A stretch of 64,000 nt of DNA from Actinomycetospora sp. NBRC 106378 (GTDB taxonomy: Bacteria; Actinomycetota; Actinomycetes; Mycobacteriales; Pseudonocardiaceae): NCBI RefSeq assembly GCF_030269685.1, contig NZ_BSTT01000004.1:248001-312000 (forward strand), given 5' to 3'. A program made the position numbers and the translations under genes. The notes under the pieces are model-generated. The model was not told the origin of the DNA. It worked only from the letters and a program-made list of their open reading frames with translations, and ran no database searches. Below, in pieces: positions 24,599 to 31,974 of this stretch (position 1 is the stretch's first letter; each line of letters begins with the position of its first letter).

Positions 24599-25324
24599 GT
24601 GGACGTGACCGCATACCTCGGGCGCATCGGGGCGCGTGAGGACGACGACCTCGCGACCCTCGCCGACCGCCACTTCCGGTCCGTGCCCTTCGAGAACCTG
24701 TCGATCCACCTCGGCGAGCCGATCGAGCTCGCGCCCGAGGCGTTGTTCGACAAGATCGTGCACCGGCGGCGCGGCGGCTTCTGCTACGAGCTCAACGGTC
24801 TGTTCGGGTGGCTGCTCGACGAGCTGGGGCACGACGTCGCGTTCCTCGGCGCGGTCGTCCACACCCCGAAGGGCGACACGGCGCCGCTGGCCCACCTGGC
24901 CCTGCAGGTGGACGGCCTCCTCGTCGACGTCGGGTTCGGCGACTTCCCCGTCCCGCCGGCCGCACTGGACCGGCCGTCGACGCACGTCGACCCGCAGCCC
25001 GACGGTGACGTCGAGGTCCGGGGTCCCGACGGCAGGCCCGGCTACCGGTTGGAGCGCCGGGTGCGGTCTCGCGACGACTTCGGCCCCACCTGTTTCTGGA
25101 CCGCGACCCACCCCGACTCCGGGTTCACCCACGGCCCCACGTGCTCCCTGCCGACCGCCGACGGCGGCCGCGTCACGATGGCCGGCGCCCGTCGCATCGT
25201 CACGGCCGCCGACGGCACCCGGAGCGAGAACGACCTTCCCGACGACGAGGCCCTGGTCGCCTACCGCGACCTGTTCGGGATCGTCCTCGACCGCCTCCCG
25301 GTCGCCCTGCACCCGCTGTCGTGA
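24599..25324 (+). CDS. nat: Arylamine N-acetyltransferase
   Basis: This 241-aa enzyme would transfer acetyl from acetyl-CoA to arylamines or hydrazines. The Cys-His-Asp triad is present: Cys in RRGGFCYELN, His in LAHLALQV, Asp in VDVGFGDFP. The N-terminal FRSVPFENLSIHLG matches the NAT signature. Mycobacterial relatives affect lipid metabolism and isoniazid sensitivity. GTG 24599 sits 12 nt after TATACC. Its stop overlaps the next GTG (GTGA), coupling it to the SurE-like gene. Confidence 0.94.
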   Translation: MDVTAYLGRIGAREDDDLATLADRHFRSVPFENLSIHLGEPIELAPEALFDKIVHRRRGGFCYELNGLFGWLLDELGHDVAFLGAVVHTPKGDTAPLAHLALQVDGLLVDVGFGDFPVPPAALDRPSTHVDPQPDGDVEVRGPDGRPGYRLERRVRSRDDFGPTCFWTATHPDSGFTHGPTCSLPTADGGRVTMAGARRIVTAADGTRSENDLPDDEALVAYRDLFGIVLDRLPVALHPLS

Positions 25325-26166
25325 TCGCGCCGCGTCTGGTCCTCGCCGTCGTCGGTGCGCTGCTCTGCGGTGCGTGCGCCGCCGCGCCGGTCGCCCCGCC
25401 GGCTCCGCCCGCGGCGACCGTCCAGGCGCGGGAAGCCCCCGCGCCGACGACGACCACCACCGCCACCCCACCCGAGAAGCTCCGCGTCCTCCTCACCGAC
25501 GACGACGGCTGGGAGGCCGGCGGGATCACGGCCATGCGGGCCGCCCTGCTCGACGCCGGGTACGACGTCACGCTGGTCGCCCCGTCCGGCAACCGCTCGG
25601 GCGCGGGCGCCACCTCGGACGGGCGGACCGAGCTCGAGGAGAAGCGCCCGGGTGTCTACGCCGTCGACGGCTACCCGGTCGACGCGGTGCGCGCCGGCCT
25701 GGACCTCATGCGCGCGGACCCGCCCGATCTCGTCGTCTCCGGCACGAACCTCGGGCACAACTCGGGCACCGGGATCGTGGAGTCCGGCACGGTGGGCGCT
25801 GCCGTGACCGCCGCGCGCGCCGGCTTCCCGGCCATCGCCGCGTCGACCCACCGCGGGAAGACGGAGGACGACTGTGCCCCGACCGCCGCGTACGTCACCC
25901 GGCTCGTCCGGACGCTCGGTCCGCGGCTGTTCGCACCTGGCGTCGTCGTGAACGTCAACTACCCGGCGGGCGACCGCGCGGAGGAGGTCCGGGTGCGCGA
26001 CCCGCTCGTCGTCGAGCTGGACGGCGAGGACATGCGCGTGCCGACCGACGGGCCGGACGACGACGTCGACCTGCTCGACGACGGCGTCGCGACGCTGACC
26101 CAGCTGGACCTGGGACCGGAGCCGTCGACCACCGTCGTCGACCGGCTCCGGGACGTCCCCGCCTAG
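25321..26166 (+). CDS. SurE-like 5'-nucleotidase lipoprotein
   Basis: This 281-aa protein starts with a signal peptide and lipobox LLCGAC (Cys about 19), then a Pro/Thr linker and a SurE domain from about residue 54. The metal site is [12 protein letters not shown], with Thr replacing the usual Asn. The downstream [10 protein letters not shown] ... VESGTVGAA matches the SurE SGxNxGxN and SGTVGAA segments. SurE enzymes are normally cytoplasmic nucleotidases, so surface anchoring suggests an extracellular phosphatase role (inference). The stop TAG overlaps the convergent stop within CTAG. Confidence 0.88.
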
Positions 26167-27239
26167 GCGTCGACCCGGGCGAAGCCCGCCTCCACCGCGT
26201 CCGCGTACGGCGTCGGATCGATCCCCTGCGCGGCCAGCCAGGCGTCGTCGCCGAAGGTGGCGCGGTAGCGGTCGGCGCGGTCGCAGAGCAGGGTGACGAC
26301 GCTGCCCTGCTCGCCCCGGTCGATCATCTCGCCGGCGAGGTGCAGCGCGCCGACCACGTTCGTGCCGGTGGACGGCCCGGCGTCGATCCCGAAGCGGTCG
26401 GCGAGGAACCGCATCGCCGCCACCGACCCGCCGTCGGGAACCCCGAGCATCCGGTCGACGACCCGCGGGACGAACGACGGCTCGACCCGCGGCCGCCCGA
26501 TGCCCTCGATGACCGACCCGGGGCCGGTCGGCTCCTCCCCGGCGTAGTGGCGCAGGAAGGCCGATCCCTCGGGGTCGACGACGGCGAGGTGGGTCGGGTG
26601 GCCGCGGTAGCGCAGGTAGCGGCCGATCGTCGCGCTCGTGCCGCCGGTGCCGGCGCCGACGACGATCCAGGTCGGGACCGGGTGCGGCTCCTCCGCGAGC
26701 TGGTCGAAGATCGATTCGGCGATGTTGTTGTTGCCGCGCCAGTCGGTCGCGCGCTCGGCGTGGGTGAACTGGTCGAGGTAGTGGCCGCCGCACGCGTCGG
26801 CGATCCGGCGGGCCTCCGCGTAGACCGCACCCGGGGAGTCGACGAACGCGCACGTGCCACCCTCGCGCTCGATGAGGCGCACCTTGCGGACGCTGGTCGA
26901 CCGCGCCATCACCGCGACGAACGGCAGCCCGACGAGCCGCGCGAAGTAGGCCTCGCTGACGGCGGTCGAGCCGGACGAGGCCTCGACGACCGTCGTGCCG
27001 GGTCCGATGTCGCCGTTGCAGAGCGCGTAGAGGAACAGGCTGCGGGCGAGCCGGTGCTTGAGGCTGCCGGTCGGGTGCGTCGACTCGTCCTTGAGGTAGA
27101 GCTGGACGTCGCCGCCGCCCGGCAGCCGCAGCAGGTGGGTGTCGGCCGAGCGCCGGGTGTCCGCGGTGATCTGCCCGACCGCCCAGGTCACCCAGGCGCG
27201 GTCGGTCGTCGTGGCCGGGCGGACGTCTCGGAGCTCCAC
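26163..27239 (-). CDS. PLP-dependent cysteine synthase/desulfhydrase-like enzyme (Cds1/Rv3684 type)
   Basis: This 358-aa fold-type II PLP enzyme has the cofactor Lys in [11 protein letters not shown], the substrate loop in [11 protein letters not shown], and the phosphate-binding Gly loop in [12 protein letters not shown]. The sequence resembles the mycobacterial Cds1 group, which releases H2S from L-cysteine, more than canonical CysK/CysM. It is the last gene of a minus-strand operon: thioredoxin, Cys leader peptide, DUF4395, then this enzyme, with 13 nt after DUF4395. GTG 27239 is the start. The context supports cysteine/sulfide handling. Confidence 0.85.
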
Positions 27240-27252
27240 GCCCCGCAGCCTC

Positions 27253-27672
27253 TCAGGCGGTGCGCGCTCCCCGGGCGCGGGCGATCAGCCCGTACATCTC
27301 GCAGCCCAGGCAGAAGCCGAACGCGGCGTTGAGGAAAGCCGCGGCCAGGGCGAACGCGGTCGCGACGACGCCGAGCGCGGTCACCCCGGTCATGTACCCG
27401 GCGGCCGCGACGACCGTGAACACGAGCCCGACGGTCTGCGAGAAGCGCACGGGGGCCGCGTCCTCGGTCTCGGACGGCGGGCCCAGGCGCGGGCGGACCG
27501 CGACGCGGAACAGGGCGCCGTACGGCGAGAGGCGCATGCCGAACAGGGCGGGCAGCGCGAACACGACGGCCTGGGCGAGCGCGAGCCAGCCGCTGCCGGT
27601 GATCAGGACGAGGGCCAGGACGACGGTCGTGATGGTCGCGGCGACACGGACGCCACGGGGATCGAGCTGCAT
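27253..27672 (-). CDS. DUF4395 membrane protein
   Basis: This 139-aa protein has three or four hydrophobic helices ([58 protein letters not shown]). The conserved C-terminal GFCLGCEMY contains two Cys, typical of DUF4395. This family regularly neighbours thioredoxins and sulfurtransferases, and a role in sulfur or thiol transport has been inferred but not shown. ATG 27672 has AGAGGAAG upstream. It lies 34 nt after the leader peptide gene. Confidence 0.88.
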
Positions 27673-27706
27673 GGGGACTTCCTCTGCGGAGTGGTGGGCG
27701 CGCGGG

Positions 27707-27784
27707 TCAGCGGCCCGGACAGAGGTCCGAGGCGAGGCGGCCGTGGTCCACGGCGCGTCGTCGGGTCAGCACGTCGTCGATCAT
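27707..27784 (-). CDS. Cys-containing leader peptide (putative attenuator uORF)
   Basis: This 25-aa ORF encodes MIDDVLTRRRAVDHGRLASD followed by LCPGR. The LTRRRxVDxxRxxSxLC pattern is that of the actinobacterial putative leader peptide group found upstream of sulfur-metabolism genes, where the Cys codon near the end is thought to sense charged tRNA-Cys. ATG 27784 overlaps the thioredoxin stop (ATGA); GTG 27772 would give the shorter form starting at LTRRR. Position inside the operon, after thioredoxin and before DUF4395, suggests it tunes expression of DUF4395 and the cysteine enzyme. Sensing is inferred. Confidence 0.72.
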   Translation of the reverse strand: MIDDVLTRRRAVDHGRLASDLCPGR

Positions 27785-28209
27785 CGGGCTGAGGTCAGCT
27801 CGCTGTCCAGCGCCTCGAGCAGTTCCTGACGACGGGGCACCCCGGACACCCGCAGCAGCTCCCGTCCGTCGCGGGCGAAGGCGACGGTGGTGGGGGTGCG
27901 CATGACGTCCAGCGTGCGGGCGATCTCCGGGCGCTCGGCGATGTCGACCTCGACGTGCCGGATGCCGGGGCGCGCCGCGAGGTCGGTGAGCTGCGCCGCG
28001 GTCTGACGGCACGGCGTGCAGATCGGGGAGGACAGCTGGAGCAGCAGCACCCGGTCGACGGCCTCGGGCGTCACGCCCGCGAGGTCCCACCCCGGGGCGC
28101 CCCGACGCGTCGTCGTCCGGACCCGGCCGGCGCGGAAGCGCAGCACGAGGCCGACGACCGACGCGAGCGCGAGCACCCCGAGGACGACGATCAGACCGGT
28201 GACGGACAC
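27781..28209 (-). CDS. Membrane-anchored thioredoxin-fold protein
   Basis: This 142-aa protein has an N-terminal hydrophobic helix (GLIVVLGVLALASVVGLVL), then a thioredoxin fold with active site SSPICTPCRQT and the cis-Pro region MRTPTTVAF. The CTPC motif differs from the usual CGPC and hints at a higher redox potential or a specialised thiol partner. GTG 28209 is chosen; GTG 28218 and TTG 28221 are also in frame. It heads the sulfur operon and its stop overlaps the leader peptide start. Confidence 0.85.
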   Translation of the reverse strand: MSVTGLIVVLGVLALASVVGLVLRFRAGRVRTTTRRGAPGWDLAGVTPEAVDRVLLLQLSSPICTPCRQTAAQLTDLAARPGIRHVEVDIAERPEIARTLDVMRTPTTVAFARDGRELLRVSGVPRRQELLEALDSELTSAR

Positions 28210-28249
28210 GTCGTGCACCAACCCCGCGCGGCCGCGGACTGTTCCCCGC

Positions 28250-29275
28250 TCAGCCGGTCTCCAGCCGACGCCCGACCGTCAGCGCGCCCGACTGCTTCAC
28301 GTGCCGCAGGACGGGGCTCACCTCCAGCCCGTCGACCCCGGGCAGGCCGCCGATCCGGTCGGAGGTGAGCTCGAAGAGTTCGTCGGTGTCGCGGCAGTGC
28401 ACGAGGGCGTGGAGGTTCGCGCGGCCGGAGACCGCGAGGGCGAACCCGAGCTGCGGCATGCCGGCGAGGGCGCGCCCGACGGCCCGGAGGCGGGACGGGT
28501 GGACGTGCAGCCAGAGGTTCGCCCCGACCGCGAGCCCGAGTGCGGCGGGCGCCAGCTCGAGGTGGAAGTGCACGACCCGGCGCTCGACGAGGTCCGCGAG
28601 CCGCCGTGCGGCCCGTCCGGCCGTGAGCCCGGTGGCGACCGCGAGGTCGACGTGGCTCGCGCGTCCGTCACGGACCAGGGCGTCGAGGAGCGGCTCGTCG
28701 CCGTCCTGCAGCGGCCCGACGTCGGACACCGCCGACCGCTCGACGACGGTGTCGGACGTGCCGCCCAGGGCGGCCTCCTCGTCCGGGGTCAGGACGCCGT
28801 CGAACACGGTCCGGTACTCGCCCCGGCCGCCCGCGAACTTCCGCATCACCACCGAGACCTCGAGGTCGAGGACGGCCGCGGCCCGGGGCAGCCGCGTGCC
28901 GAGCAGGTCCTCGCGCGCCTCCTGGGAGCGTGACCGGACGACGCAGGTGACCTCGGTGCCGGCCGCGCTCAGGGCGACCCACCCGACGTCGGCGCGCAGG
29001 GCCAGCGACTCGGCGATCGCGGCCGCGCTGCCGGGACGGCAGCGCAGCCGCACCAGCCACTGGGTCTGGCCGAACGCCCCGGGATCCACGACCCCCGCGA
29101 CGTGCAGCACGCCGGCCCGGCGCATCCGCGCGTGACGACGGGAGAGGGAGGCCTCGGAGGTCCCCAGCACGGCGGCGATCGTCGCGAAGGGTGCCCTCGG
29201 TGCGAGCTGCAGGGTGCGGAGGATACGGAGGTCCTCGGGCGCCAGGCTGCACGATTCCGACGTCTCGCCGTCCAC
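28250..29275 (-). CDS. Lrp/AsnC family regulator with two HTH-ligand units
   Basis: This 341-aa protein contains two Lrp-type modules. The first HTH is at about 12-60 (LRILRTLQLAPRAPFATIAA; SEASLSRRHARMRRAGVL) with a ligand domain to about 140. The second HTH is near 195-240 (EPLLDALVRDGRASHVDLAV) with a second AsnC domain to the end. Double-length members are common in actinobacteria. It is divergent from an MFS exporter across 71 nt and is a likely regulator of it. GTG 29275 is the start. Confidence 0.87.
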   Translation of the reverse strand: MDGETSESCSLAPEDLRILRTLQLAPRAPFATIAAVLGTSEASLSRRHARMRRAGVLHVAGVVDPGAFGQTQWLVRLRCRPGSAAAIAESLALRADVGWVALSAAGTEVTCVVRSRSQEAREDLLGTRLPRAAAVLDLEVSVVMRKFAGGRGEYRTVFDGVLTPDEEAALGGTSDTVVERSAVSDVGPLQDGDEPLLDALVRDGRASHVDLAVATGLTAGRAARRLADLVERRVVHFHLELAPAALGLAVGANLWLHVHPSRLRAVGRALAGMPQLGFALAVSGRANLHALVHCRDTDELFELTSDRIGGLPGVDGLEVSPVLRHVKQSGALTVGRRLETG

Positions 29276-29346
29276 GTGCGCAAGGATCGCACGGGAATGG
29301 CGGCCGGAGCGTCGGAAGCCGGGGCGGTGCGGCGCACGCTGGCCGC

Positions 29347-30843
29347 GTGCTCAGGTGGTTGCGGCTGATCGCGGTGTGTCTCGGGACGTTCATGCTGCTC
29401 GTCGACGTCACGATCGTGAACGTGGCGCTGCCGGCCACGGCGGTCGACCTCGACACGTCGTTCGGGGCGCTGCAGTGGGTGATCGACGGCTACGCACTGG
29501 CCCTGGCGGCGCTGCTGATGGCCGCCGGCGGGGTCGCCGACCGCGTCGGCCACCGGTCGACCTACGTCGCGGGCACCGTCGTCTTCGCGCTCGCGTCCCT
29601 TGGCTGCGGCCTCGCGGTGGACCCGGCGATGCTGATCGTGTCGCGGCTGGTGCAGGGCATCGGGGGCGCGGCCATGATCGCCACGACCTTCGCGCTGCTC
29701 AACGGCTCCTACACGGGCTCCGACCGGGCGAGCGCCTACGGCGTGTGGGGTGCGGTGTCGGGGGCCTCCACGGCGGTCGGGCCCCTGCTCGGCGGTCCGA
29801 TCACCGAGGCCCTGTCGTGGCGGTGGATCTTCTTCGTGAACGTGCCGGTGAGCGTCGTGGCGATCGCCGTCTCGCTTTTCGTCCTGCCCGCCGCGCGTCC
29901 GGCGCGGGCCCGTCGGGTCGACGTCGCCGGGGTCGTCGTGTTCAGCGCCGCGATCGCAGCGCTGACCTCCGGCATGATCCGCGCGACCGACGACGGCTGG
30001 TCGTCGCCGGCGTGCTGGGGCCTGATCGTCCTCGGGGTGCTGTTGCTGGCCGCCTTCGCCGCGGTGGAGCGGGCCGTCGCCGAGCCGCTGCTCGACCTCG
30101 CCCTGCTGCGGCAGCCCGTCTTCGGTGGTGTCCTGCCGGTGGCCCTGCTGCTCAACGGCGCGGCGTACGTCTCGCCGGCCTTCGCCTCGCTGTGGATGCA
30201 GTCGGTGCTGGGGCTCTCACCGGTCACGGCCGGTCTCGTCGCCCTGCCGATGTCGGTGGCGGCCTTCGTCGCCTCCCTCGCGACCGGGCGGCTGCTGCGG
30301 GTCCGGACGGCGGGTGCGGTGATCGGATGCGGCCTCCTGCTCGTCGGGGTCGGGGACCTGCTGGGGGCGGTGCTGGTGTGGACCCTCGCGGCGTGGCCGG
30401 CCCTGCTGCCGGGCTTCCTGCTCGTCGGCGTGGGGATCGGGCTCGCGACCGCCCCGCTGGGCTCGGCCGGGACCGGTGCCCTGCCCGCCGCCCGGGCGGG
30501 GATGGCGGGCGGCGCGGTCTACACCGCCCGACAGGTCGGGGTCGCGTTCGGCGTCGCCCTGCTCGGCGGTGTCTTCGCCGGTGCGACGGGATCCTCCCTC
30601 GCCGGCCGCGGGGCGGGGTCCGCGGCGCGCGACGTGGTCGGCGGGCGGACCGCCCAGGTGCTCGCCGCCGCGCCGGTCTCCGCGCGGCCGGCCCTCGAGG
30701 GAGCCGTGCGCGCCGCGGTCGCGCACGGGATGGCCTCGCTGCTCGCCGTCGCCGGGCTCGCCGGGCTGCTCGGGGCCCTCGTCGCGTGGACGGTGGTGCG
30801 GGCCCGCCGCACCGACCCGGCGTCAGCCGTGGCCCACCGCTGA
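29347..30843 (+). CDS. DHA2-type (14-TM) MFS multidrug exporter
   Basis: This 498-aa membrane protein has about 14 hydrophobic helices. Motif A-like VADRVGHRS, motif C GAVSGASTAVGPLLGGP, and the N-terminal LDVTIVNVALP-like segment (LVDVTIVNVALPA) are characteristic of EmrB/QacA antiporters. It uses the proton gradient to export drugs or metabolites; the substrate is unknown. GTG 29347 is chosen because translation then starts directly before the first helix. The divergent Lrp-type gene suggests local control. Confidence 0.92.
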   Translation: MLRWLRLIAVCLGTFMLLVDVTIVNVALPATAVDLDTSFGALQWVIDGYALALAALLMAAGGVADRVGHRSTYVAGTVVFALASLGCGLAVDPAMLIVSRLVQGIGGAAMIATTFALLNGSYTGSDRASAYGVWGAVSGASTAVGPLLGGPITEALSWRWIFFVNVPVSVVAIAVSLFVLPAARPARARRVDVAGVVVFSAAIAALTSGMIRATDDGWSSPACWGLIVLGVLLLAAFAAVERAVAEPLLDLALLRQPVFGGVLPVALLLNGAAYVSPAFASLWMQSVLGLSPVTAGLVALPMSVAAFVASLATGRLLRVRTAGAVIGCGLLLVGVGDLLGAVLVWTLAAWPALLPGFLLVGVGIGLATAPLGSAGTGALPAARAGMAGGAVYTARQVGVAFGVALLGGVFAGATGSSLAGRGAGSAARDVVGGRTAQVLAAAPVSARPALEGAVRAAVAHGMASLLAVAGLAGLLGALVAWTVVRARRTDPASAVAHR

Positions 30844-30929
30844 CCCTCGACGTCAGGAAACCGCCACGCTCGTCCTGCCCACCCCGCCCGACCGGGGCGC
30901 CGGACAGGTCCCCTACACTCGGCTCTGCT

Positions 30930-31003
30930 GCCGCCTTAGCTCAGTCGGCCAGAGCAACGCACTCGTAATGCGTAGGTCTCGGGTTCGAATCCCGAAGGCG
31001 GCT
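30930..31003 (+). tRNA. tRNA-Thr (anticodon CGT)
   Basis: The acceptor stem GCCGCCT pairs with AGGCGGC (30996-31002), followed by discriminator T. The D-stem is GCTC/GAGC, the anticodon stem ACGCA/TGCGT holds loop CTCGTAA with CGT at 30964-30966, and the T-arm contains GGTTCGAAT. CCA is not encoded. It reads ACG. A TACACT -10 box lies at 30914-30919. Confidence 0.97.
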
Positions 31004-31012
31004 CCGCTGGTC

Positions 31013-31047
31013 AGGGCCGGTCCGGACGTCTCCGGGCCGGCCCTTTT
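31013..31047 (+). terminator. Terminator after tRNA-Thr
   Basis: AGGGCCGG (31013-31020) pairs with CCGGCCCT (31037-31044), followed by TTTT. This is the only hairpin in the region with a T-run, a classical intrinsic terminator. Confidence 0.75.
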
Positions 31048-31074
31048 CCGTGGACGTCGTGGAGGCTGTGTCCG

Positions 31075-31974
31075 GTGCCGGGGCTGCGCAGGCGAACGCT
31101 CGCGGTGGCCGGGTGCGCGGCCGTGCTGCTGCTCGCGACCGCCTGTGGCGGTGCGCCGGCACCCGCCGTCGCACCCCTGGCGGCGACGCCCACACCGCCT
31201 CCCGTGGTCGCGCCCCCGCCGGCCGCGCCGCCCACGACGACCCCCACCACCGCTGCCCCGGCGCCGGCCGACCTGCACGATCCGGCGCTCAAGGACGTCG
31301 CGATGCAGCTGGTGTCCGCCGCCGAGAACTCGACGCTGGACTGGCGCGACCAATACGGCTACCTGCAGGACATCGGCGACGGGCGCGGCTACACCGGCGG
31401 GATCATCGGCTTCACGTCCGGGACCGGCGACATGCTGGCTCTCGTCCGGAACTACACCGCGACCGTGCCGGGGAACCCGCTCGCCGAGTTCCTCCCGGCC
31501 CTGCGGGCGGTGAACGGCAGCGACTCGCACGACGGACTCGGCGCGGCGTTCGAGGACGCCTGGCGCGAGGCGTCGACCGACCGTCGGTTCACGGCCGCCC
31601 AGGACCGCCTCCGCGACCAGGCCTACTTCGACCCCGCCGTCGCAGCGGCGAAGGCCGACGGGCTGCCGCCGCTCGGGCAGTTCGCCTACTACGACGCGAT
31701 CGTGGTGCACGGTCCGGGCAGCGATCCCGCGAGCTTCGGGGGTATCCGCGCCGCGGCGAAGAAGCAGGCCAGGACCCCGGCGCAGGGCGGTGACCTCGCC
31801 GACTACCTCGACGCCTTCTGGCGCGTGCGGATCGCGGTGATGCGCTCCGAACCCGCCCACACCGACGTCACCCGCATCACCGACGTGCAGCAGAAGTTCG
31901 CCCGCGACGGCAACGATGAGCTCCGGACGCCGCTGACGTTCTCGGTCTACGGGGACCGCTACACGATCTCCTGA
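31075..31974 (+). CDS. GH46 chitosanase lipoprotein
   Basis: This 299-aa secreted enzyme has the lipobox LLLATAC (Cys about 24), a Pro/Thr-rich linker to about residue 65, then a GH46 domain. The catalytic Glu lies in QLVSAAENSTLDW and the catalytic Asp region in DIGDGRGYTGGIIGFT, both family hallmarks. It would cleave beta-1,4 glucosamine linkages of chitosan outside the cell. GTG 31075 is the start. The lipobox means it is probably tethered rather than released, unlike most secreted chitosanases. Confidence 0.92.
   Translation: MPGLRRRTLAVAGCAAVLLLATACGGAPAPAVAPLAATPTPPPVVAPPPAAPPTTTPTTAAPAPADLHDPALKDVAMQLVSAAENSTLDWRDQYGYLQDIGDGRGYTGGIIGFTSGTGDMLALVRNYTATVPGNPLAEFLPALRAVNGSDSHDGLGAAFEDAWREASTDRRFTAAQDRLRDQAYFDPAVAAAKADGLPPLGQFAYYDAIVVHGPGSDPASFGGIRAAAKKQARTPAQGGDLADYLDAFWRVRIAVMRSEPAHTDVTRITDVQQKFARDGNDELRTPLTFSVYGDRYTIS

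Follow-up and report, generated by a model that had tools for sequence, protein, structure and literature searches.

In the window, by which we mean the whole 64-kb stretch of DNA that was analysed, a 25-codon open reading frame (ORF) between a thioredoxin gene (trx) and a DUF4395 gene is a real gene that is maintained by selection. Judged by its motif and its profile score, it is a homologue of the actinobacterial leader peptides that precede sulfur genes. We consider it probable that this ORF functions as a cysteine-sensing leader uORF of the Ms5788A kind, situated in its usual place behind trx and before DUF4395 and cut off from cysA, and that ribosome stalling at its UGU codon frees the Shine-Dalgarno sequence of DUF4395.

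The ORF is encoded on the minus strand, which the preliminary description had not stated although it had located the 25 codons correctly at 27707-27784. Its ATG is at 27784-27782 and its stop codon, TGA, at 27709-27707; the plus-strand translation of 27707-27784 is unrelated to the leader peptide. The ATG and the trx stop codon share the sequence ATGA, DUF4395 begins 34 nt past the leader stop, and a Cds1-like gene follows 13 nt past DUF4395. The features of the locus are as follows.

27781-28221, minus strand: thioredoxin-like protein (PF00085, E 1.1e-7)
27780-27809, minus strand: promoter-like site in the tail of trx, TGGACA (27809-27804), 18 nt and GATGAT (27785-27780), from a promoter scan
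27707-27784, minus strand: leader ORF of 25 residues, MIDDVLTRRRAVDHGRLASDLCPGR, when translated from the ATG overlapping the trx stop (sequence, HMM, pN/pS)
27707-27772, minus strand: leader if leaderless from the GTG at codon 5, VLTRRRAVDHGRLASDLCPGR (GTG invariant in 6/6 genus members, spacing to GATGAT)
27720-27725, minus strand: CCUCUG over the Leu-Cys codons, complement of CAGAGG in the Shine-Dalgarno region (27681-27686), paired in the minimum free energy fold
27719-27721, minus strand: lone Cys codon of the leader, UGU (TGT in 6/6 genus members)
27678-27685, minus strand: Shine-Dalgarno sequence of DUF4395, AGAGGAAG, from the sequence
27253-27672, minus strand: DUF4395 membrane protein, the predicted first controlled gene (PF14340, E 8.4e-46)
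26163-27239, minus strand: Cds1-like PLP enzyme (NF052478, 547 bits)

The strict motif RRxVDxxRxxSxLC has a single match in the window, while 60 random 64-kb sequences generated from a first-order Markov model contained one match altogether (0.017 each). When the 969 stop-to-stop segments of the window were searched with a profile (HMM) of 110 outgroup leader peptides, the leader frame obtained an E-value of 2.5e-9 and the runner-up 0.6. The resemblance to this leader pattern and the overlap of the ATG with the trx stop had both been pointed out in the preliminary description, and both were confirmed, the ATGA overlap being present in all six leader-bearing genomes of the genus. After the UGU come Pro, Gly, Arg and the stop, which is therefore the fourth codon past the Cys.

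DUF4395 is found in ten of 18 Actinomycetospora genomes and the leader in six of those ten. The proposed check on conservation in relatives came out in favour of the peptide: over these six genomes codons 5-25 have a pN/pS of 0.165, a value as low as which was reached in none of 2000 column shuffles, whereas codons 2-4, between the ATG and the GTG, have a pN/pS of 1.86, i.e., no protein constraint. The stretch GAC-CTC-TGT-CCG-GGC is invariant across the six species and is the sole invariant stretch of the leader, which is suggestive at best. The low pN/pS together with this stretch indicates that strong purifying selection has preserved the peptide from about codon 5 onwards. A surplus of synonymous conservation over the whole leader was considered and rejected, as 4 of its 13 fourfold sites are invariant, compared with 18 of 78 in DUF4395 and 15 of 47 in trx. 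The genus leaders have Gly, following His or Phe, at the position of the first Cys in most outgroup leaders, and the spacer between leader and DUF4395 is 32-38 nt long in the six genomes (34 nt in the window). In G003 and G013 the leader is absent and trx directly overlaps DUF4395; in G001 and G007, whose DUF4395 is diverged, no leader was found upstream of DUF4395. The window copy is a leader in a derived setting, with the peptide and its UGU retained, one Cys, and an ATGA overlap with trx.

With the Ms5788A family of Cys-rich leaders (NCBIfam NF042933) the window leader has the motif LTxRRAVDxxRxxSxLC in common, and the gene order trx, leader, DUF4395, cysA of that family is likewise seen in the scanned relatives; it differs in having one Cys and no Cys run, no downstream cysA, the ATGA overlap with trx and no TANNNT box. 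Against the leader_Ms5788A model it scored 23.8 bits (E 2.5e-5), below the curated cut-off of 45 bits; for scale, L123, a leader from the same taxonomic order, scored 54.9 bits, and the Pseudonocardiaceae leaders L031 and L022 scored 44.2 and 43.6 bits, just under the cut-off. The 'putative leader peptide' family cis_reg_atten (NCBIfam NF042934) has the same short motif, and 18 of its residues align with the window leader, which scored 14.5 bits (16.2 with the GTG start), below the cut-off of 27 bits. Among the traits of actinobacterial cysteine leaders before DUF4395/cysA, as observed in the loci compared, the motif, the place between trx and DUF4395 and a terminal UGU a few codons before the stop were found in the window leader, and the stop/Shine-Dalgarno complement and the downstream cysA were not. 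Its sequence marks it as an Ms5788A-type relative that lies below the formal family cut-offs, in a derived setting. The cysA leader of the same genome (L218) shares LTRRRAVD..R..S.LCPG, the UGU at the SxLC Cys and an upstream trx with it, but differs by its TAGCGT-N7-GTG, by having at least two Cys and by being followed by cysA. The uORFC-8-2 motif before cysS in Rhodobacterales is likewise a uORF with Cys codons, thought to use attenuation, but as presented in the available text of PMC8632094 it has two tandem Cys codons, predominantly UGC, and an intrinsic terminator, none of which the window leader has. In mycobacteria, a conserved cysteine-rich small ORF before cysA2/Msmeg_5788 was described, with ribosome occupancy in M. 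smegmatis (PMC4633059), and two papers that cite Canestrari 2020 report at second hand a cysteine-dependent attenuation, in that species, of the genes downstream of such ORFs (PMC9031893; PMC13236596). A comparative study of 2005 covered mycobacterial cysteine leaders; its available text finds no terminator and calls the mode of regulation unknown (PMC1262725).

DUF4395 loci were drawn from the genus, family and class of the window. A first set of 117 loci is an uneven sample, made up of the 59 best-scoring DUF4395 matches (L019 to L077), 49 hand-picked loci (one per genus or family) and nine genus members; the locus of G007 (L136) lies outside it because its diverged DUF4395 gave no tblastn match. 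A second set holds 80 named loci and overlaps the first in at least five genomes. Using one regular expression, we found a leader upstream of DUF4395 in 103 of the 117 loci (among the 14 misses, L090 and L091 have a variant leader by inspection) and in 51 of the 80, that is, in 154 of 197 loci with at least five genomes counted twice. In 104 of the 117 loci DUF4395 is preceded by a trx match on its own strand, and a cysA-like sulfurtransferase lies downstream on the same strand in 143 of the 197, namely at 138 of the 154 loci with a leader versus five of the 43 without one. These counts therefore define trx, leader, DUF4395, cysA as the common operon. Ten of the 16 leader loci that lack cysA are from Actinomycetospora, some of them one genome twice. 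In Dactylosporangium, Hamadaea, Actinoplanes and relatives (L154, L156, L163, L164, L166, L168, L169, L171, L172, L173) neither a leader, by the regular expression, nor cysA was found at the DUF4395 loci.

Canonical leaders look like leaderless uORFs with their own promoter, since, outside the genus, 77 of 97 loci have TANNNT exactly 7 nt before the leader start and 92 of 97 have it 6-9 nt before; as several start codons and gaps were tried per locus with no shuffled control, the evidence in these counts is the peak at exactly 7 nt. In many Pseudonocardiaceae loci (L021, L022, L030, L033, L036, L042, L103 and others) we noticed by eye an inverted repeat, TCCC...GGGA, just before the leader -10 box, a possible operator for some regulator.

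Two starts can be envisaged for the window leader, and we hold them about equal: the ATG coupled to trx, and a leaderless start at the GTG at 27772. The overlap of the ATGA and the missing T of the -10 box fit the coupled ATG, while the 7-nt rule of the outgroup and the unconstrained codons 2-4 fit the leaderless GTG. This bears on the earlier proposal that the leader is inside an operon, which agrees with the ATGA overlap in 6/6 genomes; yet GATGAT-N7-GTG behind TGGACA, also in 6/6, permits a 5′ start of its own. A serious possibility, if not quite a probable one, is that the leader is not internal at all: it would be leaderless from GTG 27772, with a promoter in the trx tail, and would form the ordinary 5′ end of a DUF4395 transcript, an arrangement compatible with a working cysteine-sensing uORF. 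The ATGA overlap would then be a by-product of the -10 hexamer GATGAT. In support of this, TGGACA-18 nt-GATGAT is the only promoter-like match in 26000-29500 (shuffles gave a mean of 0.0), GATGAT stands exactly 7 nt before the invariant GTG of codon 5 in all six leader-bearing genus genomes, the same gap as in the outgroup rule (77/97), and TGGACA is present in all six genus sequences. Codons 2-4 with their pN/pS of 1.86 point the same way, and there is a precedent in L109, where TAGGGT-N7-ATG overlaps the trx stop. Against it, GATGAT does not fit TANNNT, lacking the first T, and no TANNNT was found within 40 nt of the ATG or the GTG in the six genus members; TGGACA doubles as coding sequence for conserved trx residues; and, relative to the motif, it is the ATG that is near the outgroup start position. 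In the outgroup starts inspected there are at least three residues between the start and LT; with the GTG start of the window leader there are none.

Of 103 leaders, 88 use UGU for the terminal Cys of the motif; UGU encodes the first Cys in four of 73 cases and accounts for 24 of 323 Cys codons in the neighbouring genes. Among non-redundant leaders the terminal codon is UGU in 61 of 78, versus five of 67 Cys codons in DUF4395 genes. Seven other leader-like matches were inspected in the window's genome, and six of them have TGT as their last Cys codon. Of 101 non-redundant leaders, 56 have the stop as the fourth codon past the last Cys.

The leader stop region is complementary to the DUF4395 Shine-Dalgarno region over at least 6 nt in 39 of 101 non-redundant loci (below 75% identity, so that relatedness is reduced and some remains); this is not universal, and 500 permutations averaged 21.5 and reached 32 at most. 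For the 74 loci with a spacer longer than 60 nt, such a complement was found in 27, against 2-3 for shifted windows. Covariation was evaluated in those 44 of the 101 loci that have a TGA stop and in which TCAGG could be located in the Shine-Dalgarno region; the remainder were left out. In 40 of the 44, the base that follows UGA makes a standard pair with the one that precedes UCAGG (expected 25.2; 0 of 5000 permutations), and the next position is a Watson-Crick pair in 21 (expected 11.3; 0 of 5000 permutations). In the same 44 loci the third pair after the leader stop did not reach significance. Before the stop, two of the three pairs have an unvarying base on one side, and the remaining one is no more frequent than expected. 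This covarying pairing points to translational attenuation in other genera, where the leader stop region would hide the next ribosome site.

In Actinomycetospora the picture is different. The stop/Shine-Dalgarno complement is just 3-5 nt in all six leader genomes, and in single-sequence folds of these six the hiding of the Shine-Dalgarno sequence was not clearly stronger than in shuffled sequences, of which a fraction of 0.07 to 0.88 equalled or surpassed the real one. The CCUCUG/CAGAGG pairing is weak evidence because it is present in only two of the six, the window and G002, while G010 and G005 have a different complement between the Leu-Cys codons and the Shine-Dalgarno sequence. The leader-to-DUF4395 RNA of the window folds better than shuffles overall (z -2.69), and the six genus folds are dissimilar. 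A conserved RNA fold of the whole spacer was rejected, as RNAalifold, applied to 40 family sequences, yielded only a weak consensus (-11.3 kcal/mol).

The internal attenuation suggested earlier finds no support if an intrinsic terminator is meant: none was found on the leader strand in 26000-29500, where the sole terminator-like site is on the other strand at 26703. A classical transcription attenuator was likewise rejected, there being no terminator hairpin with a U run in the 34-nt spacer between leader and DUF4395. An Rfam search over 25000-31500 gave nothing at the leader; its sole matches were a tRNA and, on the opposite strand of that tRNA, one below threshold.

That the leader still senses cysteine and controls DUF4395 is nevertheless the most likely interpretation, with ribosome stalling and the cysteine response ascribed to it by analogy with its homologues. 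When charged tRNA-Cys is scarce, the ribosome would stall at the UGU, four codons before the stop; the stalled ribosome would block the leader 3′ end from pairing with the DUF4395 Shine-Dalgarno sequence, so that DUF4395 would be translated, and in this species translation of the following Cds1-like gene might be raised too. With ample cysteine, the ribosome would leave and the Shine-Dalgarno sequence would be hidden. Several observations count against such a working leader: the 3-5 nt complement, the folds close to shuffles, the single Cys, the scores below the cut-offs, the lack of a leader in G003 and G013 and the logic of a desulfhydrase under this control.

Some of these would be expected of a decayed remnant, in which the RNA switch has been lost in the genus and the ORF only relays ribosomes from trx to DUF4395. 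The six genus members show neither the stop/Shine-Dalgarno pairing nor a TANNNT box, one Cys has been lost relative to most outgroup leaders, and two genomes have dispensed with the leader. A relay, however, needs no retention of particular residues, yet codons 5-25 have a pN/pS of 0.165 and GAC-CTC-TGT-CCG-GGC is invariant in six species, and we regard decay as the less plausible account. A role of the peptide as a small trans-acting protein, as its conservation in the RRxVD part away from the Cys codon might suggest, is very improbable in view of its fixed place before DUF4395 and cysA, its end a few codons past the Cys (most often at the fourth) and the action on downstream genes reported, second-hand, for experimental homologues (PMC9031893).

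The Cds1-like enzyme scored 547 bits (E 2.1e-164) against NF052478 (Cds1 L-cysteine desulfhydrase), under the curated cut-off of 600 bits, with 145.8 bits for the next model. Its gene adjoins DUF4395 in only three of the 18 genus genomes, G000, G002 and G005, which are close to one another. The only other genome of the 18 with a Cds1 match at E 1e-30 is G009, where the gene has no trx, leader or DUF4395 beside it and its flank is directly contiguous with the stretch that in the window contains the tRNA. Cds1 does not look like an ancestral part of the trx-leader-DUF4395 unit, and it would be odd, making little sense, for such a leader to raise a cysteine desulfhydrase under cysteine shortage. 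Because Cds1 is patchy and its induction at low cysteine is odd, the 'cysteine/H2S homeostasis module' that the preliminary description read into the locus is unsupported beyond these three genomes. The comparative search for the peptide beside DUF4395 and Cds1, proposed at the same time, was successful for DUF4395 (103/117 loci) but not for Cds1 (3/18 genus genomes). Between trx and the tRNA, at 28250-30843, the window's genome also has an Lrp/AsnC-type regulator and a transporter-like gene; both are missing there in G002 and G005, where trx comes directly after the tRNA region.

As for the origin of the locus, cysA is present in 16 of the 18 genus genomes, including all 15 of good quality, and is not beside DUF4395 in the loci read. 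At all 16 primary cysA loci the leader is of the canonical form: it has a TANNNT box, contains at least two Cys and uses UGU for the Cys of SxLC. (Second cysA copies in G000 and G002, L234 and L235, have no leader.) In 15 of the 16 loci cysA is closely preceded by a separate trx, 43-49% identical to the window trx; in G013 none was found upstream of cysA at E 1e-15. The window trx and DUF4395 are closer to those of Pseudonocardia, with identities of 57-70% for trx (13 of 29 loci compared) and 68-77% for DUF4395. With a separate trx and cysA leader elsewhere and Pseudonocardia-like genes in the window, the window locus is therefore a second, split-off trx-leader-DUF4395 unit, which arose either by duplication or by transfer. 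The window's genome has seven further leader-like matches (L001, L002, L004, L005, L006, L007 and L008), some of which, e.g., L008, may be due to chance; the genes after some of them look by eye like a cysA sulfurtransferase and alkanesulfonate monooxygenase-like, OsmC-like and sulfite reductase-like genes.

Taken to its furthest, the locus could be a re-wired attenuator separated from its sulfur operon, in which initiation overlaps the end of trx, sensing is by a single UGU, the Leu-Cys codons hide the DUF4395 Shine-Dalgarno sequence and cysteine sets DUF4395, and locally Cds1, apart from trx, with two wider rules: that the terminal sensing codon is the rare UGU and that the leader stop region hides the next ribosome site. 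We put this forward tentatively, as a rather doubtful whole. The two rules were not met in the literature surveyed, as represented in its available texts, and Canestrari 2020 stands outside that survey. If cysteine does set the ratio of trx to the downstream genes, this would hold under the ATG as under the GTG start. Across many genera, the covarying stop/Shine-Dalgarno pairing and the UGU rule would make the mode of regulation of these leaders directly testable, unless it was settled in Canestrari 2020. The Actinomycetospora copy is a natural experiment in this respect, since the peptide and its UGU are kept, the promoter box and the stop pairing are gone, and some relatives are without the leader.
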